DNA from: Saprospiraceae bacterium
Lineage (GTDB): Bacteria; Bacteroidota; Bacteroidia; Chitinophagales; Saprospiraceae
Length of the DNA stretch: 33,944 nucleotides
Assembly (NCBI GenBank): GCA_026993525.1
Contig: JALWSS010000226.1
Coordinates: 1-33,944, forward strand
Reading direction: 5' to 3'
Below, one piece after another: positions 1,172 to 31,392 of this stretch (the first letter of the stretch is position 1; each line of letters starts with the position of its first letter). The notes below the pieces were generated by a model, which saw only the letters and a list, made by a program, of their open reading frames with translations, was not told the origin of the DNA and made no database searches. The position numbers and the translations under genes are program-made.

Positions 1172-1181
1172 TTTTGCGAAG

Positions 1182-1219
1182 AAAAAGAAAAACCGGAACC
1201 TGACAGTTCCGGTTTTTTT
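1182..1219 (-). terminator. Rho-independent terminator of the giant surface-protein gene
   Basis: An 11-bp perfect stem pairs 1189-1199 with 1206-1216 around a 6-nt loop. It is flanked by A-rich and T-rich tracts on both sides, so it could work in both directions. It begins about 22 bp after the stop of the giant minus-strand gene, and on that strand it is followed by a T-rich run. Confidence 0.85.
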
Positions 1220-1240
1220 AAAATCAAGGATGTCTCAGTG

Positions 1241-4200
1241 TTATGGTAATTTTTCGTTGATCACAAAATTGGCAAGGAGGTTAATGTTGTCCGGACTGGC
1301 CAGGATGGTGTGGAACAATAGTTTGCTCCGGTCGTTGTCGGGCCCCTGGTAGATGATTACCCCGTCCATGTTGAAATCTGTTGAAGTGTAGCCCTGGCCG
1401 ATGTAATTCATGAGCCCAAAGGTGTTGTCCGGAGCAGATGCAATGAAGAAAAATATATTCAGAATGTCATTGCCGGGGCCCTGGTACACAACTTTCCGGT
1501 CGGCATTGAGGTCGCCGGACCACAGCGCCCGCTGGCCGGCGTAGTTGATGGCCGGGTTGGTTCCGAAAACTTCGAAATTGCTGTCTTCGAAGTCTGTTGA
1601 GACAACGGTAGGGGTCAGGTGAACCGGTTGGTTGCTGGCCATGCCGAGGTGATTCCGGTGGCGTATGGCCACGAAATAATCACCACTGGGCACATTGGGG
1701 AAGAACACCGCCGAAGTGCCGTCCACGTCCACTGCGTCACCATCCCGTTGGAGCAGTGCAGAGCGGGTAGAGACGACCTCGTGTGCATCATCAACAGATC
1801 GCAACTCGATGAACACCCAGTCAACGATGGCGTTGTCGCCGCTGGTGAGCAAGACACTCGGGTCGATTGTTTCTCCACCGCACCCTATGACATGCTGGAA
1901 GGATGGGTTGTCAGTGAACGGTTCGGTCAGTGGGATCAATCCTTTTTTCCGAAGGTCATCCCGCATCAAGGTATTGTTGGTGCTTTCCAGGAGGCTGCCG
2001 TGAAGTTTTACCTTGATTTGTAGCCGGACGCCTATGCAGGTGGTTCCGGCGAGCGGGTCACAGGGGTCCCTGGGGTTGGACTCACTGCCGGCGGGGCCGT
2101 CCACGATGCCGTTGTGGTTGGCATCTTCCACGCCGTCGGGGATGCCGTCGTTGTCGGTGTCGGGGTCAGTGGGGTCGGTTTCTATGCCGAGTTCAAAGAT
2201 GCCGTTGTGGTTGGCGTCTTCCACGCCGTCCGGGATTCCGTCACCATCGCTGTCGGTGCGCAGCCAGTGGGTTTCGCCGTCGTCCATGATGCCGTTGCCG
2301 TTTTTGTCTTCGAGGGCATCGGGGATGCCGTCGCCATCGCTGTCGGTGTCTTTGTTGTTGGGTTTGGTGTCGCCGTCGTCGTCCACGTCGGGTTGGTTGT
2401 TGGTTTCGCCAAACTCTCCGTCAATGGCTCCGATGCTGAAAGGCGAGGTATCGGGATCGGGACCGTCTTCGGGTTTGCCGTCCTGGGTGGCGCCGTCACC
2501 TTCGGTAACGATGTAGCCCACCAGGTTATCCACCATTCCATCGCCGTTGGCATCGGTAAATACGTCAATCTGGTTGTCGCCGTCGAGGTCGAGATCGGCC
2601 AGGCCTATTTCCACGATGTCCGGGATGCCGTCGCCGTCGCCGTCGCCATCGAGGTAGTCAGGAGCGCCGTCGCCGTCCAGGTCTGCGCCCTGGTAGGCAC
2701 TGCCGTCGCCGTCGGTGTCTTCGGGGCGGCCGTCCTGCACGGCTCCGTCACCGTCGGTAATGACGAGGGGGTTGTTTTCGTAGAAGTCAGAGAAGCCGTT
2801 GCCGGTGGTGTCTTGTGCGAACAGCGAGTCGAGTTTTCCGTCGCCATCGGTATCTATGCCACCGGCTTCGATGAGGTCGGGTATGCCGTCGTTGTCGCTG
2901 TCTGTGTCGAGGAAGTTGGGGATTCCGTCGCCGTCTTTATCGGGGGCGCCGCTGTTGGGGCCATCGGTATAAACACCGCCGGTTATTTTGATGAGCACTT
3001 CCCCGGGCTGGTCAATTCCGAAAGAAGAGTCATCGTCGGGGTCGTAGAGGTCGTAGAAGCCATCTCCGTCGGCGTCCGGCAAGGAGGCCGCCACGCTGTC
3101 AATGGGATAGTCAATGTGCCCGTCGCCGTCGCTGTCAAGGCCACCGGCTTCGATGAGGTCTGGGGTACCGTCGTTGTCGCTGTCCTGGTCGAGGTAGTTG
3201 GGCACTCCGTCCTGGTCTCTGTCGGCTGTGGGTGAGAGGGGGTCGAAATCGGAGGAGGCCACGGGGTCGGGGTTGGTCTCATCGCCGTCCATGTCGTTGG
3301 CGATGCCGTCGTTGTCGAGGTCCCAGTCGGACTGGCCGAAGAGGTCCACGATGCCGTCACCGTTTTTGTCCTGGAAACCGGCTTCGATGATATCGGGTAT
3401 GCCGTCGTTGTCGCTGTCGAGGTCCTGTCGGTCCGGGATGCCATCGCCGTCGGTATCGGCGGTACCTTCCACATCATCGGGTATGCCGTCGTTGTCTTCG
3501 TCCAGATCGAAGAGGTCTGCCAGTCCGTCACCATCGGCGTCGTTTTCGTTGTAAACGGTGATTTTCTGGTACTTCAGGGTTGTATTGTTGCAGTAGTCGC
3601 TAAGGGACCAAACCCGGAGTACATACCCGTCGCAACCATCCAGGTAAGCCAGGTTGTCGGTGTAGCTGGCTTCCAGTCCGTCTGCGCAGTTGTCAGCTTC
3701 GTCAAACACATCGCCTGTGATGTTCAGGTCATTCCTGTCGGTGGCGCAGGTGATGGTCAGGTCAGCGGGTACGGTGAAGGTGGGTGGGGTGGTGTCTCTG
3801 AGGATAAAGCGCTGTACCAGGGTGGTGCTGTTGCCACATTCATCGGCGATGTACCAGGTCCTGGTGAACAAGGTGTCAGCGCCACAGTCGAAGCTGTACG
3901 GGCTGTCGGTAACCGTGATGGCCGTTGAGACGTCGCAGTTGTCCATTCCGACGATGTCAACACCCAGTACGGGCGGGTCGGGAATGGCGCTGCATTCCAC
4001 CTCCCGGTCAAATGGCAGGCTTCCTTCCACCACCAGGTAGGTCAGGGATTCGGCAGCATGCGTGCCGTCCAGGTAGTCCCACTCGTCAATTTTTACGGAG
4101 AAGGAGTTGGGCGTTACCGAAGCCACCCTGATGGTAGCCGGCGCACCGTCGTTGTTGGAGATGCCGCCGAGGATGACCACCGGGTTGTGGTAATCGAATT

Positions 4201-7200
4201 GCAGGTTTACCGTTAGGAAATTGTCTGTCACACTGATCTGACCCGTTTCGCCGAAGGCCTCACCATCGGCAAGTGTCAGCACTTGCCCTGCCTGCAGGGC
4301 CATGTAACCGGCACTTTCGTAACCGTGATTGGTCTCAGGATCCAGAGACGTTTCCTCCTGGCAGTAAATGGTGGCACTACTTCCGGTAAGGCCGGAATAG
4401 CGCATAGCCACCGGGTTGTTTTCGTTGAAAGTTTGCAGACAGGTGACAAAACCGGCGGGGCTGTAGGATTGCGCCAGCGAAAGAGATACCGGATCGCTGC
4501 TCACCAGTTTCTTGCCCACTTCCAATGGCAGGCCGGTAGTGTTCACACCTTCCTCTATGGCCATCCAGGCCACACTTTCCACGCCGTGTTTGCCGTCGCC
4601 GTTTTCCTGTTCCTGAATTCTGAGCTGGAATTGTTCAGTAGAAATGTTGCGCAAGCGAGTGACGACAGCTGAAGCGTCGTTGTTGGTCACTACCTGGGCA
4701 AAGACGATGGGCTTGGTGGCAAACTGCACGGGCAGCCGCACGGTCTTCCAGCGGTGGGTCACGTTTTCCATCACGCCGGCCACCATTCGCTTGCCGTTGG
4801 GCAGGGTGTAAATGCGGTAGATGTCAGGTGCGGTGGCATCCTGAATGGTCACGGTTTGCTGGTTGGACACGGAGTTGCCGCAGTAGTCCTGGGCCGTCCA
4901 TACCCGTGTGAGCAGGTAGCTGTAGATGGCGCAACTGTCCTGGCCCTGGTTGGATTGTTCGCTCATGGCCAGGGTTACCTGCTGGCAGTTTTCCCAGGCG
5001 TCCACGATGGGAGGCAGTGGTATCTCGTCGTCGCAGAAGACCATTTCATCCGGCGGGATGTTTTGCAGCACCGGCACTTCGGTGTCACCCAGGTCAATGG
5101 TTACGGTAGCGGTGGCACAGCAACTGGTGCCGTTGTTGCAAACCTGGTAGGTGAATTGGTCGGTTCCGCAAAAGGCGGAGTTGGGCGTGTAGATGAACTC
5201 CCCGTCGGCATCCATGTCTATGGTTCCGTTTTGCGGTGGTGTGGCAATGCTGTACGTCGGATTGACCACGCTGCTGTCGTTGTCCGAAACATTGTCGAAG
5301 AAAAACAAACCCGGGCAGGCCGAGGTGTAGAGGTCGTCAGTGGGCTGCGGGGCCTCTGAGGTGCGTTTCTGCACTGCGTTGCTCAGCACCCAGGCCGAAC
5401 AGGGTGATCTGCGGGCTTTGCGCCGGAATTCGGTGGTAACATTTATGGTGCCCGGGCTGAGCGTATCTGCATTTGCTCCGGCAATGTCCTGCCAGGCGGT
5501 CCATCCGCCCATGCCGTCGCTTTCCCGCTTTTCCCATTGAAATTCTGCCGTGCCTCCTGTGCCGCCAAAAGGTTGCGACAGCGAGGTGATGGTACCGGCC
5601 GGTATGTTGCTGCAAAGGTCTTCCTCACCGCTGATGGTGCCTCCCTGTGTGTAGTTTCCGACGATGCTCAGGCTCGTGTCGGCATAGCCAAAGCAGAAAC
5701 TGTCCTGTACGGTGAGGTAGATGGTATGGCTGCCACCGTTGGCAAAGCTCACACTGTGCGGCCCCGCTCCGGTAGCCGTTTGCGGCGTGGCGCCGCTACC
5801 AAAATTCCAGGTAAAGGTATAGGGCCCGCTGCCGCCGGATACCGTTCCGGAAACGCTGACTGCCGAGCCGGTGCATACCTCCGTGGGGCTCGCCTGGATG
5901 GCTGCATCCAGGCTGGAGGGCTCGGTAAGCGTCACCGAACCCCAGGCCTGTTCGCATTCCTGTCCGGTATAGCGGAGCCGGATATCGTAAACACCACCGG
6001 CCAATCCACCGTAGCTAAACGGAGGAGCTGACCAGGTGGTGCCACCGTCAATGCTTCCTTCAATGGTGGTGCCGGGAGGATAATTCGTGGTTATGTTGAT
6101 GGTGCCATCGGAAACATTGCAAGTGGATGGATCTGTAGATGTGAGGTTGGTAACAACGATTTGTGGCCGCACCTGCCATTGCAGGGTGTCGGCAGCGGGG
6201 CAGCCGTTGAGGTCGGTTGTCAGAATGACGGTGACGGTTGTGGAGGCCACGGTGTTGGGCACGTTGAAGCTGACGGCGTGGGGACCGGCTCCTGAGGCCG
6301 TTTGCGGGCTGGCAAACTGCCCGAAATTCCAGCTGAATGTGGTTCCGTTTGCCGAAGGAGCAGCTTCAAAAGTGTACTGGATGAGCTCGCAGAGGTAGCC
6401 GTTGTCGGTGGCCGGGAATGTGGCTATCATCGCCGTTGGCAATGGCTTCACGGTTTTCACCACGGTGTTGGAATTGATCCAGGCCTGGCAAGGCGAGCGC
6501 TGGGCCTGCCGGCGATACCAGGTGGTCTGGGCAATGGGTGCCGGATCCCAGGTGGTGCCTGTAGCACCGGTGATCGTTGACCAGGTTGCACCCGAATCCG
6601 TGCTTTTCTGCCAGCGGTAAACGATGGTTCCGTCCACCCCGCCACTGGGCAGTGCCAGGCTGCTGACCGGTGCCGGATCATAAGCACCGCATTGCACTTC
6701 ATCACCTGAGATGTAGCCCCCGTTGGTGAAATTGTTCACCACCATTTTGGTGACGCCCGCCGTGTACACCCATGCGCTGCAGGGATTTCTCCGGGCCCCT
6801 CTTCTGTATTGTGTCGTCAGAATGATGGGCGGTGGGTTGAAGGTTTCCGCATTGGCGCCGGGCACATCCACCCAGGTGCTGCCGCCATCCGTACTTTTTT
6901 GCCATTGGTATTCCAGTGAGCCACCCTGCCCGCCGGATGGTGCTACGGTACTTCCAATGAGTTGCGGGTCGAAAGAGCCACATTTTGTTTCCGTTCCGGA
7001 AATGCTGCCGGCATCGGTGAAGTTGTTCACCACGGTTTTGATGACGGGTTCAGTGTACAGGTAGCTGGCGCAAGACGATCGCCGGGCGCCCCTCCGGAAC
7101 CAGGTGGTCAGGCTGATGCTGCCCGGGTCGTAGCTGTCGGTGTTGGCACCGGGGATGTCCGTCCAGGTGGCGCCATCGTCGGTACTTTTTTGCCATTGGT

Positions 7201-10714: not shown

Positions 10715-11044
10715 AGTTTTTGTCGAGGGGGGTAGCGGTTTTTGTAAATGTGAACGGATGGCGTTTTTCCGGAATGTTTCCCGGAATTGTCATTCGCCAC
10801 GGTGTCTGTTTCGTTAGCGCCTCGCCTTTTTTCGTCGTCTCAATGTTGGCCCGAAGGGCCGAAGAAGGCGAGTGAGACCAAACACAAAAGCCCCGGTGAA
10901 TCAGCAGGCTCTTGCCACCAACAGGGTTAAAGCATTCTGAAATTTTGGGTTGCAGTAGTGTTATTTATGAAATGCAGGAGGGCGGGAAGGAGCGGGGGTT
11001 GGGTGTGTATTGTTGAGAAGGGCAAAGCTTGTACCAAAAGAAGG
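10715..11044. other. Intergenic region upstream of the giant gene
   Basis: No gene was recognised. The region holds the nested inverted repeats at 10821-10878 and presumably the promoter of the giant gene, but no clear TTG / TAnnTTTG pair was found on the minus strand. Bases 10880-11044 show nothing further. Confidence 0.5.
10821..10878 (-). promoter_or_regulatory. Interleaved inverted repeats, possible leader pseudoknot or switch
   Basis: Read on the minus strand, the order is GTCTCA (A), CTCGCCTTCTTCG (B), a GGCCC-TTC-GGGCC hairpin, TGAGAC (A'), then CGAAAAAAGGCGAG (B'). A pairs with A' (6 bp), and B pairs with B' (8 bp, then 4 bp past a small internal loop). Because the arms interleave as A-B-A'-B', they can form an H-type pseudoknot or two mutually exclusive stems. 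The element ends about 107 nt before the giant gene's ATG, so it would lie in its leader if transcription begins upstream. Function is inferred from pairing only. Confidence 0.4.
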
Positions 11045-11233: not shown

Positions 11234-12298
11234 TCAGCTTTTCTGGAAGAGCCGGAAGCTCAGCATCTTGCCTTTTTGGTCTCTCAGTACGAGCAGATGC
11301 GTGCCGGAGGCCAAACCGGAAACCGGGATTTGTGCCTCGCTGCTGTCCAGTGTTTGCGAAGCGACCGGTTTTCCGTTCATGTCGAATATTTCCAAAGTGC
11401 CGGTTTGGGCTTCTTCAAAACGGATATTCAGATAATCAACGGCAGGATTGGGATACAGTTCCATGGCCGGCCCCTGGAAGACCTCTTCGTCGGAGGTGAC
11501 TAAACTTTTGAGCCAGGTGACGGAATAGGCGTCAAATTCGGGTTCGTATTCCACCTGCACCACCGGGAAGCCAAGTCCGTTGGTGTTTGCCCAGAAGTTG
11601 TAGTCGTAGGAGGTGTCAGGCTCTGCAGAACCATCCACCAACTGCCATACGCCTGCAAACAGGATGTAGGTGGAGTCCCAGGACTGGTTCATTTCTGTAG
11701 AGCGAATGACTTCGTAGCTGCCCGCGGGTGTGGTCATGTTGCCGTAGGCATCAATGCTGACACTGCGTTTGGTGGTGGTTTCCAGCCTGACGCTGTCAAA
11801 CGGAAAACCGATGGTGGCTCCGTCCAGCGATATGGTCTGGAAAGTGGTTTCATTGTAGCTGTCTCCAAAGGTGGCCGGAAAACGCAACAACGACTGGCCG
11901 GGGTTGATCCGGACAGATACGTCAACGCTCGTAACGGAGTCTATCTCGAAATGCGCCCGGGTGCCGATGATGCTGAAAGCCTGGTCGTTCAAAATGAAAT
12001 AGATGTAACCCAGCGTGTCGGATTGCGCAGCGAGGTTGGCGTTCGGAAACTCGTCATAGAACGGCGTTTCGTCCGGTATCACGAATTTGAAATCCGACTC
12101 TTGCTGGTCTTTCAGTGCGGTGTAGTCCCAGCTTTGCATGCCGGGTCCTCCTTCGGTAATGCTGGCGTCCGGCAGGGTGTCAACCGTTTGGATGGCTGTG
12201 ACGCCCAGTGCAGCAATGTCGCTGGCATTGATGGTGATTTGGGCCTGAACGCTCACAAAAGCAAACAAGCCTAACAGAAGTGTAAAGTGTCTTTTCAT
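11234..12298 (-). CDS. Secreted protein with T9SS type A sorting domain
   Basis: 354 aa. A signal peptide covers residues 1-19 (MKRHFTLLLGLFAFVSVQA). The C-terminal ~75 residues form a type A T9SS domain: ELYPNPAVDYLNIRF, then GTLEIFDMNGKPV, and a final GTHLLVLRDQKGK strand ending in a basic residue. This predicts export across the outer membrane and processing by the T9SS. The central ~260 residues are beta-rich and not recognised as a named family. The gene starts 56 bp after the stop of the copper monooxygenase gene on the same strand and is followed by a strong terminator, so the two are probably co-transcribed. It could act with the monooxygenase at the cell surface (inference). Confidence 0.85.
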   Translation of the reverse strand: MKRHFTLLLGLFAFVSVQAQITINASDIAALGVTAIQTVDTLPDASITEGGPGMQSWDYTALKDQQESDFKFVIPDETPFYDEFPNANLAAQSDTLGYIYFILNDQAFSIIGTRAHFEIDSVTSVDVSVRINPGQSLLRFPATFGDSYNETTFQTISLDGATIGFPFDSVRLETTTKRSVSIDAYGNMTTPAGSYEVIRSTEMNQSWDSTYILFAGVWQLVDGSAEPDTSYDYNFWANTNGLGFPVVQVEYEPEFDAYSVTWLKSLVTSDEEVFQGPAMELYPNPAVDYLNIRFEEAQTGTLEIFDMNGKPVASQTLDSSEAQIPVSGLASGTHLLVLRDQKGKMLSFRLFQKS

Positions 12299-14004: not shown

Positions 14005-14955
14005 TCACCAGTCTTTGATCTCCCAATAGTTCTGGTTTTCGATCTCGTCCAGGATGGCCAGGTAGTTTGAATAACGAAGTTCGCTGATGAGACCCTCTTC
14101 CAGGACCCTTTTTACGGCGCATCCGGGTTCGCTCCGGTGCAGGCACTGGCCACCGAATTTGCATTGCGACGACAACTCAAAAAATTCCCGGAAGTTGTGA
14201 GCCACGTCCAGCAGTTCCAGGTTGTTGAAACTCAAGGTTTTAATGCCCGGTGTGTCTATGATGGTTCCGCCAAAATCCAGGTCGTGCATTTCTGCAAAGG
14301 TGGTGGTGTGCTGCCCTTTGCCGGAGTAGTCGGAAAGCTCTCCCGTTCGCAGGTTCAGCTGGGGCTGTATGGCGTTGATCAGGGTGGATTTGCCCACGCC
14401 CGACTGGCCGCTGACGAGGGAGATTTTATCCTTCAGGCTGTCTTTCAATGCTTCCAGGCCGGTGCTTGCCGTGGCTGAGGTGAGCAGCACCTGGTAGCCG
14501 ATTTCGCCGTAGATGTCCCGGAGGTATTCGAAAACATTCAGATGCCCTTCGTCATAAAGGTCGGCCTTGTTGAAAACGATGACAACGGGGATGTTGTAGG
14601 GTTCGGTCATCAGCAGGTAGCGGTCAATGAAGCCCGGTTTGAGGTTGGGTTCCACAATGGTGACGATGAGTACCGCCTGGTCAACATTGCTGGCCAACAG
14701 GTGCAGCGAGTGTTTCTTGCGAGGCGATTGACGGACGACGTAGTTCTTTCGTGGCAGGATCTCGTGGATGGTTCCTATTCCTTCTTCTTCCAGGTTGACT
14801 TTCACCTCATCGCCTACGGCAACCGGATTGGTCAGTGGCAGCCCGTCGAGACGGAATTTGCCTTTGATGCGGCATTCCACCGTCTCACCACCTTCCAGCT
14901 TGACGGTGTACCAACTGCCGGTTGATTTTCTGACTGTGCCTTTTTTCAGATTCAT
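14005..14955 (-). CDS. rsgA: Ribosome small subunit-dependent GTPase A
   Basis: 316 aa, a circularly permuted GTPase that helps mature the 30S subunit. After an N-terminal OB-fold (residues 1 to about 75), the G motifs appear in permuted order: NKAD at 129-132 (G4), the P-loop GQSGVGKS at about 183-190 (G1) and DTPG at 234-237 (G3). The C-terminal zinc site is Cys265, Cys271, His273 and Cys279. The open frame extends 20 codons further upstream, but ATG 14955 is chosen because MNLKKGTVRKS is the usual family N-terminus and an AAAGGA ribosome-binding site lies just before it. The gene stands between two unrelated gene sets. Confidence 0.96.
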   Translation of the reverse strand: MNLKKGTVRKSTGSWYTVKLEGGETVECRIKGKFRLDGLPLTNPVAVGDEVKVNLEEEGIGTIHEILPRKNYVVRQSPRKKHSLHLLASNVDQAVLIVTIVEPNLKPGFIDRYLLMTEPYNIPVVIVFNKADLYDEGHLNVFEYLRDIYGEIGYQVLLTSATASTGLEALKDSLKDKISLVSGQSGVGKSTLINAIQPQLNLRTGELSDYSGKGQHTTTFAEMHDLDFGGTIIDTPGIKTLSFNNLELLDVAHNFREFFELSSQCKFGGQCLHRSEPGCAVKRVLEEGLISELRYSNYLAILDEIENQNYWEIKDW

Positions 14956-15898: not shown

Positions 15899-15963
15899 TC
15901 AAAATCCATCCAAAGAAAAACAGAATCGGGCAGTTGCGAAGCGAGGGGAAACAACAAGCGGCC

Positions 15964-17547: not shown

Positions 17548-17835
17548 TTTGAGGGATGAGGGATGAGGGATGAGGAATCGAGGAATTGATCCCGACATCC
17601 GTCGGGAGAGGAATTGATCCCGACATCCGTCGGGAGAGGAATTGAGGAACCGAGGGGGCTAGCACCTCCAAACTCTACACTCTACACTCTACACTCTACT
17701 CTTAATTTAACCGCAGAGTTGAACAGAGTAGCGCTTCCAAACCCTACACCCTACACCCTACACCCTACACCCCCGTCTGGCCTGCCTGCCTGTCGGCTAG
17801 ACAGGGCGCCAGCCGGACAGGCTACTCCCTACTCA
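17548..17835. repeat. Intergenic tract of heptamers, 28-bp repeats and palindromes
   Basis: In order: three GATGAGG heptamers (17555-17575); two exact 28-bp direct repeats (17583-17610, 17611-17638), each holding a CCCGACATCCGTCGGG palindrome; TACACTC heptamers (17672-17703); TTAACCGCAGAGTTGAACAGAG (17706 on); TACACCC heptamers (17742-17775); and an 11-bp inverted repeat with one bulged base near 17788-17822. Bases 17836-17907 show nothing further. These are the same building blocks as in the tracts at 15.0-15.9 kb and 31.4-31.76 kb. Confidence 0.9.
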
Positions 17836-17907: not shown

Positions 17908-18969
17908 TCAAAAGGCTCCTTTCGAATTTTCAATAACCTGCATGATGTGGTCCCGGTCTTTTATTTCCCGGAAGAAAGCATTGAGGTAAGCGATGATCTC
18001 CTCTCTGGATTGTTGTGGCAGAAGCCTGAAAGTGTGGACTTGGTCCATCAGGGAAACTTTTTTCTTTTCGTAATAGCGCAGCACCGGGTCCACTTCTTCA
18101 AAAGTTCGGGGAAATCCAAGGTAAACCCGGTCACAAATGGACTTTTGGCCCAGGCTGGCATTCGGCCGGGCGTAGGGTGCTTTCACGAGGCAACTGAAAT
18201 CGAAATCATAAGGTACACAGACGATACGGCCATCGGGTAGTCGGATCATCTCCACATTGCGGTACATGGTGTAGCTGTAGTCCGCATTTGAAATCATGTA
18301 TTGAAACAGCGAGGTGGCAATTTCCTGGAAACGGTGGAGGCTGTCAGGGTTGACACCCATGGCCTCGTACTTTTCGGCGTTGTAGCGCTCGGCCAGGTCT
18401 TCACCGTCTTCCACCAGGATGCTGTAGTGCTTGATTCTGGACAGGGGTTTTTCTTGCCCGGCATAGCGGACCTTGACCAGGCGCACCCGGAAGCTGTAAT
18501 TGGAGACAATGGAGTACAATTTGTAAATGAGGTATTCCCGGATAACGAGTTCACGACTCCTGGTGCGGTCGTTCAGGCAGTGGGTGACCAGTTTCAGTTC
18601 GTTCACTTCGCTGAGTCCTTTTTTCCGAAGGTCTTTTTTTCTGAATTTCAGTTTCAGGGGGGGGAAATCGCATTTCATCCGGCGAAACTTTCCCCTGCAT
18701 TTGATTTTCATGTCCATGTCCAGCACAACGTCTTTTTTGACCTTGAACTGAATGTGTCCGGGTTGGTATTTATCTGTTTTCCGGTTGGCTTCCAGCAGTT
18801 TGTAGTCGGTGGTGAGGACTACTTGCGCAACCTGGTCTGCCGGCAAGAGGTCGAAGATGCTTTTTTGCGAAGCGAGGGAATCTGTTTCCTGGGAAAACAC
18901 TGCACCGGCAGGAAAGGCCAGAACTGACAATGCAAAGGCGTGCAAGGTGAGTGCGAAGAGATTTTTCAT
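17908..18969 (-). CDS. Secreted CotH-kinase-like protein
   Basis: 353 aa. ATG 18969 is chosen because it starts a signal peptide (MKNLFALTLHAFALSVLAF, cleavage near residue 25); the upstream 65 codons of open frame overlap the neighbouring gene's end and lack family features. The order of motifs resembles the CotH atypical-kinase fold: MDMKIKCRGKFRR (compare xxRGNS), PPLKLKFRKKDL, ELKLVTHCLNDRTRSRELVIREYLIYKLYS, then Asn228-Ala-Asp230...Asn238 followed by YDFD (Asp255, Asp257). In CotH proteins the comparable Asp/Asn residues bind metal and ATP. The similarity is remote, so kinase activity is a hypothesis. It lies 58 bp after the BatA/VWA gene on the same strand and is probably in its operon. 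Confidence 0.6.
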   Translation of the reverse strand: MKNLFALTLHAFALSVLAFPAGAVFSQETDSLASQKSIFDLLPADQVAQVVLTTDYKLLEANRKTDKYQPGHIQFKVKKDVVLDMDMKIKCRGKFRRMKCDFPPLKLKFRKKDLRKKGLSEVNELKLVTHCLNDRTRSRELVIREYLIYKLYSIVSNYSFRVRLVKVRYAGQEKPLSRIKHYSILVEDGEDLAERYNAEKYEAMGVNPDSLHRFQEIATSLFQYMISNADYSYTMYRNVEMIRLPDGRIVCVPYDFDFSCLVKAPYARPNASLGQKSICDRVYLGFPRTFEEVDPVLRYYEKKKVSLMDQVHTFRLLPQQSREEIIAYLNAFFREIKDRDHIMQVIENSKGAF

Positions 18970-19027: not shown

Positions 19028-21058
19028 TTAGCCTTTCCAAAACCTGAGCAGGAGGGTCTCTGCTCCAAGTGCCAGCAAGGCCAGCAGTACAAACCATTTC
19101 CACAGCAATATCCCCGTACTTCGCTCCGCAATGACATCGGTAAGGCTGGCCAGGGCGCTTCCACCTATGACGTTCACGTTGGGTGGGAGTTGCTGCTCCA
19201 GTTCGTCAATGGAATAATACCGAAGGTCACTTTCCCGGCGGTCGTAATTGAAAGCAAATTTTGCGAGGATGGTGTCGGGTTGGAGAAACAGGTCGTAATA
19301 GCCGGCTTCCAGTGATTCGTTTTGCAAGGTCAGGTACACCTTTGAAGCTACGATGCGCTGCTGAGGAATGAACTCCTCTTTCTCACCACGGAGCTTGTAC
19401 ACGCTTTCCCCTCCGTGCACGTGGTTGTCGGCCTCGATGACCTGGTCTGCACCGATTGTGTAGGCGATGGGCCTGCTGCGTGCCGAGGAAATGGCCATTT
19501 TGTACAACATGGGAACAAAGATCTCCCCACTGGTGGCCAGGTTGCTGAACTCGTCACTCAACGGCGCTGCACAGAGGTAAAAGATGCCATTGCCCGAGCG
19601 GTATTTCGAAAGGAAGGTGCTGCCGTCGCGGTAGGTCAGCAAGCGCTCACCACCGATCCGGGCTGAGGTGCCGATCTTGAAATTGCCCCTTGTGGCAGGG
19701 AGGCGCAGGTTGGCGTTTCGGTTTTCGAATACATCGCGGAAAACAAATTCTTCGGTGTTGATGTCTGTCACCTGCCTGTTTACGGTTTCAAAGGCCTTGA
19801 TTTCATCTGCCGGAACACTTTTGAGGAAGGCGTTCCAGCTCGCCAGGTCGGCATCCTGGGGCGGGAAGGCCAGCAGATTGCCCCCATTTTTCACATACGA
19901 TGCCAGCTCGAAAGAAAGTCCGGATGAAATGGACCTGACCCCGTTGCAAATAATCAGTTGGAAGCCCGGAAACGAGGAATAATCCAGGTTGCGTACCAGT
20001 TGGTTGGTCACCCTGAAATAGCCGGCACTCTTAAATGCAGCGTCAAGGCGAGGGTCAGGAGCCAGCTCATTGATGACCAAAACGTCAATGAATTCAGCCA
20101 CGTGAAAGGTAAAATAATAGCTGTCATCAAACTGCACCGGGTAATCGGTCAGGTTGAGCACGGCCTCGTGCCAGCCTGTTTTGCTGATGTTGATGACAAC
20201 GGTGTCAATCACCTCTGATCCGGCCGGGATGTTGAGGGTGCCTACGGGCTTGGTTTCCCCTCCGTAGGTCACCGACAAGCGGACGTTTTCGGCGTCGTCG
20301 TTGCCCCAGTTGCGGGTTTTGACGAACAAGACATTGGGTTGGTTGAGCGTCCTGACGGGCGCTTCGAACCAGGAGCTGTCTATGCTCACGTTGTTTTCCT
20401 GTACCGCTTGCAGCGGAACCAGATTGACCTGGAGGCTGGTGTCACTGTATGTGCCCAGGTCGGTGATGTTGCGTTGAAAATCAGAGATGATGAAGCTGAG
20501 TAGATTTGGAGCGGTGCTGGTTCCAAGCACCTGTTTTTGCCTGGTCAGCACCTGACTGATGGTGCGCACTGCCGGGCTGGTTTTGATCTCATCCAACATT
20601 GCAAGTGCTTCTTCTTTTGACACCAGCCGTTGGTGTTTGCCCTCAAAATCATTGGTGAGTATCTGGAAGCGGTCTTCTTCCCGGTAAGCGTTCACTATTT
20701 CCCGGGCCTTTTGCCTTGCTTTTTCCACCATGGGAACATCTTCGCTGAGGGATTGCATGCTGAAGGAATTGTCCACAAAAATGCTGATGGCATTGTCGCC
20801 TTGTTTTACCGCCGATCCCTGGGGGATGAATGGCTGGGCAAAGGCAAACACCAATGCCAAAACGGCCAGGCAGCGCATCAGCAGCACCAATAGGTTGCGA
20901 AGTTTTTGCCGGGCGCTGGTCTCTTCCTTTACCTCTTTCAGGAATTTCACATTGGTGAAGTACACCTTCTTGAACCGACGGAAATAAAAAAGGTGAATGA
21001 TGACCGGAATGGCAATGGCCAGTGCGGCAATCAGAAATGTCGGGTAAAGGAATTGCAT
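19028..21058 (-). CDS. BatA/VWA-domain membrane protein (aerotolerance-type)
   Basis: 676 aa. The N-terminal ~80 residues form the BatA-type membrane module: MQFLYPTFLIAALAIAIPVI, a basic turn FYFRRFKKVYFTNVKFLKEV, then a second membrane helix ending AFAQPFIP. A von Willebrand A domain follows with MIDAS residues Asp96, Ser98 and Ser100 (DNSFS). The large central part is extracytoplasmic and beta-rich, and a last membrane helix (GILLWKWFVLLALLALGA) precedes a short tail. Such proteins occur with MoxR ATPases in Bacteroidota, but none is in this window. ATG 21058 starts directly at the family N-terminus; the 28 upstream codons are not conserved-looking. Downstream is the CotH-like gene. Function beyond envelope integrity or protein-complex assembly is not known. 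Confidence 0.85.
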   Translation of the reverse strand: MQFLYPTFLIAALAIAIPVIIHLFYFRRFKKVYFTNVKFLKEVKEETSARQKLRNLLVLLMRCLAVLALVFAFAQPFIPQGSAVKQGDNAISIFVDNSFSMQSLSEDVPMVEKARQKAREIVNAYREEDRFQILTNDFEGKHQRLVSKEEALAMLDEIKTSPAVRTISQVLTRQKQVLGTSTAPNLLSFIISDFQRNITDLGTYSDTSLQVNLVPLQAVQENNVSIDSSWFEAPVRTLNQPNVLFVKTRNWGNDDAENVRLSVTYGGETKPVGTLNIPAGSEVIDTVVINISKTGWHEAVLNLTDYPVQFDDSYYFTFHVAEFIDVLVINELAPDPRLDAAFKSAGYFRVTNQLVRNLDYSSFPGFQLIICNGVRSISSGLSFELASYVKNGGNLLAFPPQDADLASWNAFLKSVPADEIKAFETVNRQVTDINTEEFVFRDVFENRNANLRLPATRGNFKIGTSARIGGERLLTYRDGSTFLSKYRSGNGIFYLCAAPLSDEFSNLATSGEIFVPMLYKMAISSARSRPIAYTIGADQVIEADNHVHGGESVYKLRGEKEEFIPQQRIVASKVYLTLQNESLEAGYYDLFLQPDTILAKFAFNYDRRESDLRYYSIDELEQQLPPNVNVIGGSALASLTDVIAERSTGILLWKWFVLLALLALGAETLLLRFWKG

Positions 21059-21213
21059 GGTGTCAGTTTTGTTGCGGGGTTCCGTGATCGGTGCTATCCT
21101 CCCAATACGTCTGAAAAAGCCGATTGTTGTCCAATACAGCACCCAACCTGGGAGCGGGCAAAAATAAGTATTTGGAGCAGAGCCGAAACCGGGTCTTTCC
21201 TTCGCTTCGCAAC

Positions 21214-21251: not shown

Positions 21252-21330
21252 CGGAAACACTATCGGAACACGTAAGATGGAATTGAGAATTGGCTATTGA
21301 TGTTGGCCGGCAGGCCGAAGAAAACCCGGA

Positions 21331-22155
21331 TCAGCAGGCCAGTTTATGGGTCTCCCAAAGTTGGAACTGGCGTTCGGGTTCCATGTTCCTGACCTGGTCA
21401 ACCAATTTTTCATCCACTTCGGGAAGGAAAGCGGGAATGGAGTTGCGGTCGTCAAAGATTTCAACATTCATCTCCTTTGCAAAGGCTTTGGCGAGGTCGG
21501 CCACGTTTTTGGCGTATGCCTCGCTTTTGCCCAGGGCCATGAACAGGTCAATGACCGCAGTTCTCACCATTTCGTGTTTGTCAATGTGCATCAACATTTG
21601 GCGCTGGGATTTGCCGGCCACCTTCCTGCCGGCCCTTTGGAGCGCCTTTTTCAGGTCGTTGGTGGAGTAGCCCAGGAGCTTGGCCCTGAAATTCCACCAG
21701 TTGGCGGCGGTGCCGCCGTTGCGGGCTTCATACAACTCGAGGTGTTTGCGCTCGCAGGCGGTTTGGCAGGACACCAGGCCCATTACTTTGGTCAGTTCCA
21801 GAATGGCCAGCACTTGTTCTTTGGTGAATCTGTCGTCCGGTGCCACCTCTTGTTGCATGTGTTGCAGGTAGGTGGCGTATTTCAGTTTGTGCCTGCTTTT
21901 GGAGTGCAGCGTGATGAGCTTGGCCAGTTCCAGCCCAAGATAGTAGTCATCGAGGAGCTTGTCTTTCCCCGGTCGCTTCGCAAAATCCCTGAGGTACTCC
22001 GGTTGCCGGATCCCATCCTGAAAATTGTAAAAGTCTCTGATCCACTTCTTCACCGCTCTGGAGTAGTCTGCTTTCGGAAGTTCCAAAACCATGTAGAGTT
22101 CGGAAGCCAAAACCACCCTTGTACCTTTTTTGCTGACCAGGATTTGAAGTTCCAT
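21331..22155 (-). CDS. Antirepressor-like DNA-binding protein (AntA/AntB-type N-terminus), putative
   Basis: 274 aa. The first ~70 residues (VVLASELYMVLELPKADYSRAVKKWI) resemble the N-terminal domain of phage AntA/AntB-type antirepressors, which has the pattern xxxARxLHxxLxVxxxFxxWI. The rest is helical and charged. It contains CQTACERKHLELYEARNGG, then a Lys/Arg-rich KKALQRAGRKVAGKSQRQML segment, and a C-terminal part not recognised. The gene is a stand-alone unit with its own promoter, an inverted repeat overlapping that promoter, and a strong terminator. It may bind its own promoter (inference). No phage structural or integrase genes are nearby, so this may be a domesticated or chromosomal family rather than prophage. 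Confidence 0.5.
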   Translation of the reverse strand: MELQILVSKKGTRVVLASELYMVLELPKADYSRAVKKWIRDFYNFQDGIRQPEYLRDFAKRPGKDKLLDDYYLGLELAKLITLHSKSRHKLKYATYLQHMQQEVAPDDRFTKEQVLAILELTKVMGLVSCQTACERKHLELYEARNGGTAANWWNFRAKLLGYSTNDLKKALQRAGRKVAGKSQRQMLMHIDKHEMVRTAVIDLFMALGKSEAYAKNVADLAKAFAKEMNVEIFDDRNSIPAFLPEVDEKLVDQVRNMEPERQFQLWETHKLAC

Positions 22156-27207: not shown

Positions 27208-27687
27208 ATGAACAAGCTTTTCTTTCTCCTCATCTTCTTCCCCGGCTTCCTTTTTACCTTCGGCTGCGCCAATTCCGAAACTGAAAAAACCGGTCAGGAA
27301 ACGGCCGCTGACCCCAACATTGCAGCACAGGACTCCCTGCGGGATGTGGTTTTTGAAATCCACGACGCGGTGATGCCCAAAATGGGTGAGATCAACCGCT
27401 TGCAGCGCGAGCTGCGAAAGTGGAAAGACGCCCACCCCGATGCCGACCCGGAAGTGCAGGAAGAAATCCTGAAAACACTGGATTGGCTCACCAGAGCCGA
27501 TGATGGCATGATGGAATGGATGGCAGGTTTCAGCCAGCCGGCCAACCTGAGGGATTCGCTGGCACACGATGCCATCATGGAATACCTGACCGGTGAACAG
27601 AAAAAGGTGCAGGCCGTTTATGACGATATCAACGGCAGCATCGGAGCTGCCAAAGCCTTGCTCGAAAAATTAAATCAAGAGAAATAA
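27208..27687 (+). CDS. Small lipoprotein, function unknown
   Basis: 159 aa. ATG 27208 begins a lipoprotein signal (MNKLFFLLIFFPGFLFTFGC) with the lipidated Cys at residue 20; the lipobox (TFGC) is loose. The mature part is mostly helical and acidic, with a likely coiled-coil stretch (HDAVMPKMGEINRLQRELRK) and a second helical hairpin near the C-terminus. No named family was recognised. It sits 9 bp upstream of the SCO1 gene and is probably co-transcribed with it. A role in copper handling or cytochrome oxidase assembly would be guilt by association only. Confidence 0.8.
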   Translation: MNKLFFLLIFFPGFLFTFGCANSETEKTGQETAADPNIAAQDSLRDVVFEIHDAVMPKMGEINRLQRELRKWKDAHPDADPEVQEEILKTLDWLTRADDGMMEWMAGFSQPANLRDSLAHDAIMEYLTGEQKKVQAVYDDINGSIGAAKALLEKLNQEK

Positions 27688-28323: not shown

Positions 28324-29463
28324 TTATTGCCAGCCGGCCAGCTCTTCCAGTCCCTCCACCAGGCGCTGCCAGGAGAAGCGCTTCTTTTCTTCCCTTACCC
28401 CTTCGGTAAAAGCCTGCTGTCGCTCTTTTTCGAAGAAATCAACAATGGCGTTGGCAATGGCCTTCGGTGAAACCTCCACCACATAGCCGGCTTTGCCATG
28501 CGCCACGATCTCCGGCAGTCCGCCAACGGCCGTCACCAGCATCGGTTTCTCAAAGTGGTAGGCCATCTGGCTGATGCCGCTCTGGGTGGCCGATTTGTAG
28601 GGTTGTGCCACCAGGTCAGCAGCCCCGAAATAGTACCGCACGTCGGCATTGGGGATGTAATCCGTGTGCAGGATGACCCGTTCCTGCAAGTCCAGCTCTG
28701 CGATCAGTTGCTCGTATTTTTCCCGGTTGCCGTAGTATTCTCCCGCCACGATGAGCCTGACCTCCATGGCCTTCAGTCTTTTATCGGCCAGGGCCCGAAG
28801 CAGCAGGTCCAGCCCTTTGTAATCCCGGATGAAGCCGAAAAAGAGCACGTACTTTCCATCGGGGGGCAGACCGAGTTTTCCCAGCGCCTCTTGCCGGCTG
28901 GCCGGCGTTCCGTAATTGTCGTAAACAGGGTGCGGGATCAGGCGGGAGGGCTTGTTGCGGGTGAACAGGCGCAGGTCTTGCTCTACGGATTCAGACATGG
29001 TGATGAAGGCATCGGCTGCGCCAATGAAGTAGCGGGTAAATAGTTTGTCGCCGGGCCTTTTTTCGTGGGGCAGCACGTTGTCGGTGATGGCAATGACCTT
29101 TGTCTTTCTTCGCTTCGCAATGCGCAGCACAGTGCCCAGGCAGGGCCCCATGAATGGCAGCCAGTAACGGACCACTATCAGGTCCGGTTTCAGTTTCCGG
29201 ATTTTCAGGCCGGTCAGTATCCAGTTGACGGGATTCACGGAATTGATCCAGGATTTGATGTCCAGCCCGGCAGGCGGAGGGTCTGTGGAGTATTGCGTTT
29301 TGCCGGGGAAAAGAAACCCCGGGTATTGCAGCCGGAAGGAAACGATGGTCACTTCGCAAGGGCCTTTCTGCAGCTCTTTGGCCAGGCGCTCCGTCAGGGC
29401 AGCGATGCCCCCCCTGAGTGGGTGGGCCGGTGACACGATGACGATTTTCTTCTTTTTGTTCAA
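28324..29463 (-). CDS. GT4-type glycosyltransferase
   Basis: 379 aa, GT-B fold. The N-terminus IVIVSPAHPLRGGIA holds the acceptor-side glycine-rich loop. The C-terminal domain has LFFGFIRDYKGLDLLL, IVAGEYYG and the PYKSATQSGISQMAYHFEKPM block typical of GT4 donor sites. The start is TTG, 16 nt after the Lrp stop on the same strand, and no in-frame ATG occurs until about residue 150; the TTG is therefore accepted. This implies co-transcription with the Lrp gene. The substrate is unknown. Confidence 0.87.
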   Translation of the reverse strand: MNKKKKIVIVSPAHPLRGGIAALTERLAKELQKGPCEVTIVSFRLQYPGFLFPGKTQYSTDPPPAGLDIKSWINSVNPVNWILTGLKIRKLKPDLIVVRYWLPFMGPCLGTVLRIAKRRKTKVIAITDNVLPHEKRPGDKLFTRYFIGAADAFITMSESVEQDLRLFTRNKPSRLIPHPVYDNYGTPASRQEALGKLGLPPDGKYVLFFGFIRDYKGLDLLLRALADKRLKAMEVRLIVAGEYYGNREKYEQLIAELDLQERVILHTDYIPNADVRYYFGAADLVAQPYKSATQSGISQMAYHFEKPMLVTAVGGLPEIVAHGKAGYVVEVSPKAIANAIVDFFEKERQQAFTEGVREEKKRFSWQRLVEGLEELAGWQ

Positions 29464-29479: not shown

Positions 29480-29947
29480 TTAGATGGGCAGACTGGTGGT
29501 GTGTTTGATTTCCTTCATCACGAAAGAACTCTGCACCCTCCCGATGTTGTCGAGGGCGGCCAGTTTTTCGGAGACAAAATTCTGGTATTCGCTCATGTCT
29601 CTGGCCACCACCTTCAGCAGGTAGTCGTACTGGCCGGCAATGTGGTAAACTTCCTGTACCTCCGGAAGGCTTTGCACGTCCTTTTCAAACTTTTCAAGGT
29701 AAACGGCGGCGTGTTCTTTCAGTTGCACATTGCTGAAGGCCAGGAGTTGGTAATTGAGCTTGTTTCGGTTCAGGAGGGCCACGTAGCGTTGGATGTAACC
29801 CTGCATTTTCAGCCTTTTCACCCGCTCGTGCACCGGTGAGGTGGTGAGGTCGAGTTGCGAAGCGATCTCCTTGATGGTGGTGTAGGCGTTTTCCTGAAGC
29901 ATTCTCAGAATGGACAGGTCGGTTTCATCGAGAAGGTGGTTGGTCAT
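29480..29947 (-). CDS. Lrp/AsnC-family transcriptional regulator
   Basis: 155 aa. An N-terminal winged helix-turn-helix (LDETDLSILRMLQENAYTTI, then DLTTSPVHERVKRLKMQGYI) precedes the RAM ligand-binding domain (VQEVYHIAGQYDYLLKVVAR). ATG 29947 gives the standard family N-terminus; a 9-codon extension in the open frame is not needed. It diverges from the Cys/Met PLP-enzyme gene. In Pseudomonas putida an Lrp-type regulator (MdeR) controls the divergent methionine gamma-lyase gene, so an amino-acid-responsive control of that neighbour is likely here (inference). The downstream GT4 is probably in the same transcript. Confidence 0.93.
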   Translation of the reverse strand: MTNHLLDETDLSILRMLQENAYTTIKEIASQLDLTTSPVHERVKRLKMQGYIQRYVALLNRNKLNYQLLAFSNVQLKEHAAVYLEKFEKDVQSLPEVQEVYHIAGQYDYLLKVVARDMSEYQNFVSEKLAALDNIGRVQSSFVMKEIKHTTSLPI

Positions 29948-30013: not shown

Positions 30014-30051
30014 ATATTATGAAGGAATATTTACTGCATTGACGCAAATCA

Positions 30052-30082
30052 TTGGGATGATGGTCTTTGCAGAGTAATTTTG
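30052..30082 (+). promoter_or_regulatory. Promoter of the Cys/Met PLP-enzyme gene
   Basis: TTG (30052-30054), a 20-nt spacer and TAATTTTG (30075-30082) match the Bacteroidota consensus exactly. The start of transcription is expected near 30088, about 24 nt before the ATG. A broken dyad, GCAAATCAT (30044-30052) against ATGAT-4 nt-TTTGC (30056-30070), overlaps the -33 region and could be an Lrp site. A TTGCGAAG motif copy begins inside the -7 element. Confidence 0.7.
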
Positions 30083-30111
30083 CGAAGCAAATAAAGCCAA
30101 AAAGATAGCTT

Positions 30112-31392
30112 ATGAAAAAGCACCAATTCCGCCCGGAAAGTTTGATGATGTCTTACGGTTACAAACCGGAGTGGTCAGAAGGCGCCATCAAATGTCCCAT
30201 TTTCCAGACTTCCACTTTTGTGTTCCAATCCGCTGAGGAAGGCAAGGCTTTCTTTGAGTTGGCCTATGGCCTTCGGGAAAAAGGCGAAAAGGAGAACCCC
30301 GGCCTCATTTACAGCCGCTTGAACAACCCGGACCTGGAAATACTGGAGAACCGGCTTGCACTGTGGGACGGGGCAGAGGATTGTGCGGTTTTCGAAAGCG
30401 GTATGTCTGCCATTACCACCGCCATGCTGGAGTTCCTGCAACCGGGTGATTTGTTCGTTTACAGCAATCCCGTTTACGGAGGCACCAGCCATTTCATTCA
30501 GCATTTTCTTCCAAAATACGGCATCCATGTCCTGGCCTTTGCGCCGGGCACCTCAAAAGATCAGCTCATCCGGATGATCAGCGAAAGCGGCCACGCCAAC
30601 CGGCTGGCCATGGTCTATCTGGAGACACCGGCCAACCCCACCAATGACCTGATCAGCATCAAAATGTGCCGGGAAGTTGCCGATCATTTTGGAAGTGCTG
30701 AACGGCGGGTGCTGGTGGCAGTTGACAACACCTACCTGGGCCCGCTGTGGCAGCACCCGCTGAAGCATGGCGCAGATTTGGTGCTCTATTCCGCTACCAA
30801 ATACATCGGCGGTCACAGTGATGTGATTGCCGGTGCTGTTTTGGCTTCAAAAGAACTGATGGAAAGGGTGAAAACCCTGCGCACCTTCCTCGGCAACATG
30901 GCCGGCCCCTGGACGGGCTGGTTGCTCTTGCGAAGCCTCGAGACACTGAAAATCAGAATGGAAAGACAAAACTCCAACGCTCAAAAGGTGGTGAAGTGGC
31001 TGGTCAACCACCCAAAAGTGGAGAAAGTACACTACCTCGGCACTCTGACACCGGCAGATGGCGAGCAATACGAAATCTACAAAGATCAGTGTGAAGCCCC
31101 CGGAGCCATGGTATCCATTGAAATTGCCGGCGGCGAAAAAGAGGCATTCCAGTTTCTGAACAACCTCAAAATTGTCAAGCTGGCCGTAAGCCTCGGAAGT
31201 ACGGAATCGCTGGCGCAACACCCGGCCACCATGACCCACGCCGGCCTGGAGCCGGAAGAAAAACTGCGTTACGGCATCACGCCCAACCTCGTCCGACTCT
31301 CCGTCGGCGTCGAACATCCGGATGACATTATCTACGACCTGAAAAATGCGCTGAATGCCGTGCAGGCTGAGCCGGTTTTGATGAATTCGTGA
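30112..31392 (+). CDS. Cys/Met-metabolism PLP enzyme (cystathionine gamma-synthase / methionine gamma-lyase family)
   Basis: 426 aa, fold type I PLP enzyme. The Schiff-base Lys is Lys230 in SATKYIGGHSD; other family blocks are YSRLNNPDLEILE, FESGMSAIT, NPVYGGTSHF and TPANPTND. Family members carry out gamma-elimination or gamma-replacement on methionine, homocysteine or cystathionine. At the position of the methionine gamma-lyase active-site Cys (YGCT in Pseudomonas) this protein has YGGT, so lyase identity is not assured. The divergent Lrp gene favours a catabolic or amino-acid-regulated role. The protein is longer than typical ~400-aa relatives, partly from an insert near residues 45-62 (AYGLREKGEKENPG). 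Confidence 0.88.
   Translation: MKKHQFRPESLMMSYGYKPEWSEGAIKCPIFQTSTFVFQSAEEGKAFFELAYGLREKGEKENPGLIYSRLNNPDLEILENRLALWDGAEDCAVFESGMSAITTAMLEFLQPGDLFVYSNPVYGGTSHFIQHFLPKYGIHVLAFAPGTSKDQLIRMISESGHANRLAMVYLETPANPTNDLISIKMCREVADHFGSAERRVLVAVDNTYLGPLWQHPLKHGADLVLYSATKYIGGHSDVIAGAVLASKELMERVKTLRTFLGNMAGPWTGWLLLRSLETLKIRMERQNSNAQKVVKWLVNHPKVEKVHYLGTLTPADGEQYEIYKDQCEAPGAMVSIEIAGGEKEAFQFLNNLKIVKLAVSLGSTESLAQHPATMTHAGLEPEEKLRYGITPNLVRLSVGVEHPDDIIYDLKNALNAVQAEPVLMNS

Follow-up and report, generated by a model that had tools for sequence, protein, structure and literature searches.

A recurrent octamer in a Saprospiraceae contig as the probable commonest form of a dispersed family of DNA mini-hairpins

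Why should one short word return again and again along a bacterial contig, within genes and between them, and on both strands? The question is raised by a stretch of 33,944 nucleotides from a Saprospiraceae bacterium (contig JALWSS010000226.1 of assembly GCA_026993525.1), here called the window, which holds 15 copies of the octamer TTGCGAAG; 100 dinucleotide shuffles gave 1.55 on average and 6 at most. The original prediction, made from the letters of the window, had listed 14 octamers, seven of them within the full 11-mer TTGCGAAGCGA. It had proposed that selection acts on DNA and not on protein, with a DNA uptake sequence, an iterated motif like the highly iterated palindrome HIP1, or a recombination or segregation signal as candidate roles. 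All 14 octamers are present, and the seven exact copies of the 11-mer were recovered. The plus-strand positions hold; for three minus-strand copies the starts given (21202, 21973 and 29110) are those of the 11-mer, the octamers beginning at 21205, 21976 and 29113. A fifteenth copy, at 8473-8480 on the minus strand, had been overlooked. The remark that the giant gene is free of copies is wrong, because this octamer lies inside the open reading frame (ORF) 1241-10714, as do three of the hairpins described below (at 4469, 4647 and 5573).

The excess extends genome-wide and genus-wide. The window is contig 226 of the source genome (G000; 5,156,449 bases in 230 contigs); this and the other genomes are draft assemblies. 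Counted over the whole source genome, with the pattern read backwards as the control used for all whole-genome counts, the 11-mer has 480 copies (244 + 236) against 2 (2 + 0), far from a count near Markov expectation. In the 13 other genomes of the genus the copies number 7 to 405, with 0 to 6 in the controls, and 26 genomes of other genera from the same family and order carry 0 to 5.

The signal is written in the DNA and not in the proteins, as had been proposed. Expected counts were taken from a three-phase, frame-aware Markov null that keeps the codon-phase composition, after repeats had been masked (14,148 of 433,944 bases in the first source-genome set). The genes are our own predictions from ORFs and hexamers, not a curated annotation, and cover a set of 434 kb (the window and 20 further stretches), later enlarged to 523 kb. 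In the 434 kb, TTGCGAAGCGA occurs 43 times against 0.37 expected, in all six frames and between genes, that is, in 7 of 7 contexts instead of a single codon context. The short form TTGCGN{1,2}AGCGA has 82 of its 92 sites in predicted genes (coding fraction 0.826), 34 in sense and 48 in antisense orientation. When all the hairpin forms defined below are taken together in the 523 kb, 75 sites are sense and 91 antisense (p=0.24), 24 are intergenic and 1 lies at a gene edge; in coding sequence of the nearest relative (G004) the numbers are 54 and 71. No replication-strand bias was found in the 523 kb (59 vs 59, judged by local GC skew only), which speaks against a strand-biased segregation or Chi-type signal. 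Because the copies occupy all six frames and both gene orientations without strand bias, we regard this as a DNA-level signal. Another word enriched in simple k-mer lists, TTTGACGAAG, was rejected as a candidate because 16 of its 22 copies within genes share sense phase 0, a single codon phase.

What, then, is the unit that is repeated? A fixed linear octamer or 11-mer, as first envisaged, does not describe it, since stem and loop vary and the unit resembles a hairpin. The repeated word is very probably the commonest member of a dispersed family of mini-hairpins, here called class A, with the form 5'-TTG-S-C-[GNA or GNNA]-G-S'-C(G/A)A-3', in which S comprises 0 to 3 pairs. In the source genome each single-letter variant of TTGCGAAGCGA has 0 to 3 copies, apart from those changed at base six (C 28, G 3, T 0). 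When the spacer between TTGCG and AGCRA is varied, one base gives 90 sites and two bases give 28, while 0 and 3-12 bases give 0-4; read as hairpins, these are TTGC-GNA-GCRA and TTGC-GNNA-GCRA.

The stem can also be lengthened. In the 523 kb, sites with 0, 1, 2 and 3 extra pairs number 118, 46, 17 and 10, where 5.65, 2.32, 0.28 and 0.05 are expected; 4 extra pairs occur in one site and 5 or 6 in none. The corresponding counts in 335 kb of the nearest relative are 92, 36, 15 and 5 against 3.74, 1.50, 0.17 and 0.03. Two other genomes of the genus show the short form strongly (51 vs 4.36 in 280 kb of G008; 18 vs 1.41 in 100 kb of G006) and the form with one extra pair moderately (10 vs 1.79 and 4 vs 0.69). 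The inner stems of the source genome are varied: single pairs read C 33, G 12 and T 1 times, double pairs CC 9, GC 6, GG 1 and CA 1, and seven triplets were seen. If the inner positions are left free, the whole source genome yields 481 places with one such position (control 29) and 190 with two (control 21), and the nearest relative yields 197 (control 20). Among the first places listed (100 of 481 and 50 of 190 in the source genome, 100 of 197 in the relative), the arms are complementary in 84, 48 and 94, where independent arms of equal base frequencies would give 52.7, 16.9 and 42.3; contig C65 supplies 3 of the 48 as tandem copies. These results support a unit consisting of the foot (TTG / C-R-A) and the loop rule, with a stem that would be required only to pair.

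The loop rule and the closing pair were examined with TT ... (A/G)A feet and any inner stem. In the source genome, C-G closed GNA loops occur at 9.5, 12.8 and 22 times expectation for 1, 2 and 3 inner positions, and C-G closed GNNA loops at 3.8, 8.0 and 10.1 times; with zero inner positions both stand at 1.0. The control loops A-N-G and C-N-T reach 0.6 to 2.5 times for 1-2 positions across the four genomes (1.0 to 2.5 in the source genome) and, with 3 positions, up to 5.2 times in G008 and G006, where the expectations are 0.6 or less. GNA loops with other closing pairs are mostly lower than those with C-G. In the source genome, G-C closed ones reach 4.9 and 10.7 times for 2 and 3 positions (15 vs 3.0; 8 vs 0.7) and A-T closed ones 4.1 and 5.4 times; in G008, T-A closed ones reach 4.0 to 7.6 times (T- and A-rich words). 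In a 100-kb sample of G003 the one-position GNA form gave only 6 vs 1.8. The commonest four-base loop is GCCA, ahead of GCAA (13 vs 8 in the source genome, 9 vs 5 in the relative). Ranked by count, the three-base foot TTG/CGA is first in both of these genomes for 0, 1 and 2 inner pairs and tied first for 3 in the relative. In G008 and G006, TTG/CAA leads at 0 inner pairs, followed by several other TTG/C-- feet, and others lead at 1 and 2, with small counts. The loop, the C-G closing pair and the complementary arms of stable d(cGNAg)/d(cGNNAg) hairpins are all present, as judged by sequence and covariation only.

A general surplus of small hairpins was considered and rejected: 4-bp stems with three- and four-base loops number 3834 vs 3728 and 3840 vs 3921 in the source genome, and because all such stems are near expectation there is no surplus of small hairpins at large. 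A scan of the pairs around CGAAG, which gave a Watson-Crick excess at flanking positions 1, 3 and 4 and none at 2, mixes class A with the sister class B described below and is superseded.

Conservation between the source genome and its nearest relative was followed over 143,862 aligned bases at 80.2% identity, a shared site being counted once per genome in the rows and separately in the tally of unique sites. TTGCGAAGCGA is fully identical in 26 of 34 aligned rows (0.76), against 4 of 37 (0.11) for permuted 11-mers; motif identity is 0.968 and flank identity 0.784, with zero internal gaps. By position, the 11-base form (59 rows) shows identities of 0.95 to 1.0, with 0.92 at the free loop base and 0.85 at the wobble base. 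The flanks stand at 0.78 at the first base on either side and at 0.53 to 0.93 within 15 bases. When words are ranked by conservation alone, TTGCGAAG is first of 5093 8-mers, and the top four of 1475 9-mers are words of the motif. The 78 unique hairpin sites comprise 48 that are identical, 6 that differ and are hairpins in both genomes, and 24 that are hairpins in a single genome. In all six of the shared-but-different sites the change is confined to the free loop base or the foot A/G. Counterparts of the single-genome sites carry 1 to 7 changed letters, their mean identity being 0.738 where the flanks have 0.750. Because only 1 of these 24 has an alignment gap inside the site, sites appear to come and go by substitution and not by insertion.

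A stricter sequence relative, class B, has the CGAAG core in common and adds to the octamer count. Its word TTNCCGAAGGRAA occurs 39 times against 0.69 expected in the source genome and 23 against 0.38 in the relative. The related TTTGCGAAGARA (18 vs 0.62; 13 vs 0.34) and TTGCGACGAAR (24 vs 0.98; 6 vs 0.64) are enriched as well. With other triloops this class has 0 or 1 copies, apart from TTNCCGNNAGGRAA (8 vs 1.68 in the source genome, 0 in the relative). We keep these words apart from class A, as sites that are perhaps double-stranded.

The window carries 21 class A sites, of which 19 are aligned to the nearest relative: 16 are identical there, 2 are hairpins with another loop base and 1 is not a hairpin. 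Eight of the 15 octamers are class A members, and one of these (30080) fits class B too; the octamer at 1174 fits class B only, and those at 8473, 12398, 20895, 22674, 29352 and 30928 fit neither. The sites of both classes are as follows, "identical" referring to the nearest relative.

4469..4480, plus strand: class A, TTGCGCCAGCGA, GCCA loop, in the giant ORF; identical
4647..4658, plus strand: class A, TTGCGCAAGCGA, GCAA loop, in the giant ORF; identical
5573..5584, plus strand: class A, TTGCGACAGCGA, GACA loop, in the giant ORF; identical
10846..10862, plus strand: class A, 3 extra pairs, TTGGCCCGAAGGGCCGA; in the relative the same stem with loop GGA
11354..11364, plus strand: class A, TTGCGAAGCGA; outside the aligned blocks
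12023..12033, plus strand: class A, TTGCGCAGCGA; outside the aligned blocks
14810..14822, minus strand: class A, 1 extra pair, TTGCCGTAGGCGA; identical
15934..15944, plus strand: class A, TTGCGAAGCGA, between predicted genes; identical
18865..18875, plus strand: class A, TTGCGAAGCGA; identical
19121..19131, minus strand: class A, TTGCGGAGCGA; identical
21202..21212, minus strand: class A, TTGCGAAGCGA, between predicted genes; identical
21303..21318, plus strand: class A, 2 extra pairs, TTGGCCGGCAGGCCGA; identical
21973..21983, minus strand: class A, TTGCGAAGCGA; identical
27260..27272, minus strand: class A, 1 extra pair, TTGGCGCAGCCGA; identical
27400..27417, plus strand: class A, 3 extra pairs, TTGCAGCGCGAGCTGCGA; in the relative the same stem with loop GTGA
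29012..29024, minus strand: class A, 1 extra pair, TTGGCGCAGCCGA; identical
29110..29120, minus strand: class A, TTGCGAAGCGA; identical
29855..29865, plus strand: class A, TTGCGAAGCGA; counterpart in the relative TTGCGCAGCTA, not a family member
30080..30090, plus strand: class A, fully Watson-Crick dialect, TTGCGAAGCAA; identical
31207..31218, minus strand: class A, TTGCGCCAGCGA; identical
32148..32160, minus strand: class A, 1 extra pair, TTGCCGCAGGCGA; identical
1173..1185, plus strand: class B, TTTGCGAAGAAAA
12458..12470, minus strand: class B, TTACCGAAGGAAA
33103..33115, plus strand: class B, TTCCCGAAGGAAA

Over the 523 kb the hairpins occur about once per 2.7 kb (191 sites). The spacing of the short form is roughly random, with a mean gap of 3.75 kb and a variance/mean of 2.56/2.20 per 10 kb; gaps under 500 bases are slightly in excess (0.19 vs 0.12 expected).

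The window holds other repeats as well. Heptamer tandem arrays of TACACCC, AGCTCAT, ACTCTAC and ACCCTAC lie at 1-127, 15119-15162, 17672-17699 and 17741-17772, and similar 7-bp arrays (TAGGGAG, TAGGGTG and TAGAGAG types) dominate the raw k-mer counts in the source-genome sample. Two 105-bp units of CAACCGC heptamers, 98% matching, occupy 15688-15898. A short intergenic repeat at about 17655-17729 has several tens of matches in the nearest relative among those listed, at 75-92% identity. The giant ORF 1241-10714 on the minus strand encodes 3157 residues and contains an internal 93-bp repeat at 2098-2348. Further words were seen elsewhere in the genus: CATTGTGGAAC/GTTCCACAATG is enriched in four contexts in stretches L051-L056 of G004 (5 copies vs 0.14), GTTCCACAA is among the more conserved 9-mers in the comparison with that genome, and TTTTGAAAA/TTTTCAAAA, enriched in several frames and between genes in G008 (L057-L070) and G007 (L100-L104), is possibly another lineage-specific signal.

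The hairpins come in dialects. The signal was found in 14 of 14 genus genomes searched, two of them weakly. The GCGA dialect, TTGCGN{1,2}AGCGA, has 1119 sites in the source genome and 1125 in its nearest relative (controls 13 and 15), and 50 to 338 in the other 12. The GCAA dialect, TTGCGN{1,2}AGCAA, has 97 and 124 in the first two and 113 to 1382 in the other 12. A T.G foot is thus favoured by the two mutually nearest genomes (81% identity) and a T-A foot by the others, which show at most 77% identity in the larger matches; G010 is nearly even (279 vs 318). The signal is weakest in G009 (70 vs 7 for GCGA and 113 vs 18 for GCAA, against control) and G002 (50 vs 11; 165 vs 13). In 100-kb samples G007 was weak as well, and G009 had no test words above about 3 times expectation beyond a few copies. 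GC content does not explain the signal of the genus, because G003, at 40% GC in its sample, has 720 GCAA sites.

Outside the genus the GCAA form is clear in G016 (354 vs 8) and present in G024 (83 vs 19), and nine further genomes of the family have 8 to 44 sites against controls of 2 to 24. Across 247 genomes of the phylum, our own included, it occurs 2 to 178 times, often above the reversed control, a palindromic word that makes for a demanding comparison. Only G250 (178 vs 26) and G072 (112 vs 59) exceed 100; the next clear excesses are in G076 (83 vs 17), G232 (72 vs 6) and G164 (68 vs 11).

Taken together, we consider it somewhat probable that these chromosomes carry a genome-wide address in DNA secondary structure. 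It would consist of hundreds to nearly two thousand selected mini-hairpins per genome, each made of a foot and a tip joined by a paired stem of free sequence, and would be read where the DNA is single-stranded or extruded, in dialects that differ in one foot pair (T.G vs T-A). The C-GN(N)A-G tip would make the short strand fold when the DNA is single-stranded or negatively supercoiled, and a protein would recognise the foot together with the folded tip on whichever strand carries the hairpin. The signal may serve self-recognition in homologous DNA exchange, in the manner of DNA uptake sequences (DUS) but read as a hairpin. This role is favoured because the sites are spread in both orientations, are highly conserved, are substituted in place and form species dialects; the conservation pattern and the dialects resemble those of uptake sequences. 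A role in uptake or recombination is, taken by itself, a tentative assignment. To the whole explanation, a mini-hairpin signal together with self-recognition in DNA exchange, we give a probability of about 0.4. The original prediction is supported in part: an uptake-sequence or HIP1-like iterated signal was the right neighbourhood.

Several observations weigh against this explanation. No reader protein was identified and nothing demonstrates uptake. Matches to ComEC occur in 13 of 14 genus genomes, and also in 6 of 6 other family members searched, of which one has the signal. In the source genome, hairpins are denser in regions aligned to the relative (60 in 122 kb) than in unaligned ones (4 in 32 kb; p=0.003), a comparison that is a proxy for core and acquired DNA; by the same proxy the relative shows no clear difference, with 64 in 143 kb and 17 in 52 kb (p=0.31). 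The sites with 2 and 3 extra pairs number 1 and 0 in each of G008 and G006, and because longer stems are weakly enriched there, the evidence for a variable stem comes mainly from the source genome and its nearest relative. Among 4627 7-mers ranked by conservation, CCGAAGG takes second place and TGCGAAG eighth, with words such as ATCATGG ahead of them. ViennaRNA with DNA parameters assigns the wobble 11-mers a minimum energy of 0 kcal/mol, both strands of the perfect 11-mer -1.3 kcal/mol and the 15-mer -3.5 kcal/mol, and favours the GNA strand of the longer forms by only 0.3 kcal/mol; this generic model may lack a bonus for special loops. Because the T.G wobble form is about 10 times commoner than the perfect form in the two nearest genomes, folding strength alone is not what is kept. 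Finally, the TTNCCGAAGGRAA class, with the same CGAAG core, perhaps resembles an ordinary double-strand site.

The hairpins could instead sense supercoiling, organise the chromosome or mark replication restart, the extruded form being bound by a nucleoid, topoisomerase or primosome protein. The promoter hairpins of phage N4 extrude from negatively supercoiled duplex (PMC4496689) and follow much the same design rules as those found here, and the near-random spacing of the short form, with its excess of short gaps, would suit such a function. The lower density outside shared regions, seen in one of two genomes, is unexpected for it and no candidate protein is at hand, so that we regard it as unlikely, though worth keeping in view. 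An ordinary double-stranded site with half-sites TTGCG and AGCGA, such as that of a methyltransferase or a HIP1-like word, is improbable and disfavoured already. The 4-bp form alone can be written as TTGCG-N(1-2)-AGCRA, and the stricter sister class exists. However, the signal is retained when 1 to 3 varying, complementary pairs are inserted, the G...A of the loop is asymmetric, unlike a dyad, and the half-words are not enriched at other spacings.

Template switching at short inverted repeats could generate hairpins as a mutational by-product without selection, and in 8 of the 24 single-genome sites at least 4 bases differ from the relative. These 24 sites are nevertheless no more diverged than their flanks. 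Nor would the process account for a constant foot (TTG/CRA), closing pair (C-G) and loop (GN(N)A), or for identities of 0.92-1.0 at most positions (wobble 0.85) beside flanks of about 0.78; we think it quite improbable. An RNA hairpin in transcripts (a terminator, processing or regulatory site) is less plausible again: written as RNA, the strand would also fold, with G-U as its wobble pair, yet the orientation in coding sequence is mixed, 82 of the 92 short-form sites lie inside predicted genes, which does not suit an intrinsic terminator, and the GCCA loop breaks the GNRA rule of RNA. Y1 transposases and repetitive extragenic palindrome (REP)-associated tyrosine transposases (RAYT) read DNA hairpins, and 12 of the 14 genus genomes contain Y1_Tnp matches. 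It is nonetheless very doubtful that the family is a mobile or REP-like element dispersed by such a single-strand transposase, as the number of matches is by eye unrelated to the signal (2 in G000, 1 in G004, 8 in G009, 9 in G006, 3 in G011) and the single gapped site among 24 indicates substitution rather than insertion. Codon or amino-acid bias, suggested by the location of most copies within genes, is refuted for TTGCGAAGCGA by its excess under the three-phase null in every context and can be practically discounted.

How do the mini-hairpins compare with known systems? The DUS of Neisseriaceae and the uptake signal sequences (USS) of Pasteurellaceae have dialects between species and follow no orientation rule, at a density of about one per kb. 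The hairpins are like them in being short, genome-wide and, between the source genome and its relative, far more conserved than their surroundings. They differ in density (about one per 2.7 kb), and for them an uptake role is only inferred. DUS and USS are linear words, whereas here the stem sequence, the stem length and the loop vary while pairing is kept, and the family does not reduce to a single consensus word. According to PMC2397512, DUS show 97% identity against about 85% in their surroundings, 71% being exactly conserved, and many singly occurring DUS are too diverged for point mutation; single-genome hairpin sites, unlike these, are as diverged as their flanks. HIP1 of cyanobacteria is likewise iterated genome-wide and lineage-specific, with alternate words in some strains (PMC4390886). 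It is a perfect octamer palindrome tied to methyltransferases, whereas the hairpin family has no fixed palindromic word. Chi and the FtsK orienting polar sequences (KOPS) differ from the hairpins, for which no strand bias was seen. REP elements are dispersed short DNA hairpins too, mobile, longer and mostly intergenic; the insertion and transposase link typical of REP/RAYT was tested for the hairpin family and not found.

The stems of the N4 promoter hairpins measure 5-7 bp. According to PMC4496689, these hairpins require the closing pair and a loop with 5' G and 3' A, combine conserved and free stem bases, and extrude at a superhelical density of -0.035 with magnesium. The hairpins described here share the small size, the mixture of conserved and free stem bases and the loop requirements; the N4 elements are three promoters in one phage, not a chromosomal signal. 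At the targets of diversity-generating retroelements the stem differs while the loop GRNA is kept, at the DNA level and on supercoiled plasmids (PMC3240598); their stems of 7-10 bp stand beside one variable repeat and are not genome-wide. Together, the N4 and retroelement cases show that duplex DNA can make use of hairpins like these. Like their three-base counterparts, d(cGNNAg) tetraloops form stable mini-hairpins. These d(GNA)/d(GNNA) mini-hairpins, known as model oligonucleotides, follow the same loop rule and the same C-G preference: for an 11-mer whose 4-bp stem carries a GCA loop, the melting temperature is 68.9 C when C-G closes the loop and 48.9 C when G-C does (PMC5815330). Our searches of open-access papers brought up no report of GNA/GNNA mini-hairpins as an iterated chromosomal signal, and we claim no wider absence.

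Uptake sequences, HIP1 and Chi, the iterated genome signals known to us, are plain words. In this family it is apparently a fold that is preserved, the letters of the stem being free to change provided that pairing holds. If this is true, selection would here be acting on DNA secondary structure, in nature and on the scale of a genome. The family would also offer a route to undiscovered DNA-exchange or chromosome-maintenance machinery in the Saprospiraceae, and a direct test of whether small GNA-loop hairpins form in living chromosomes.

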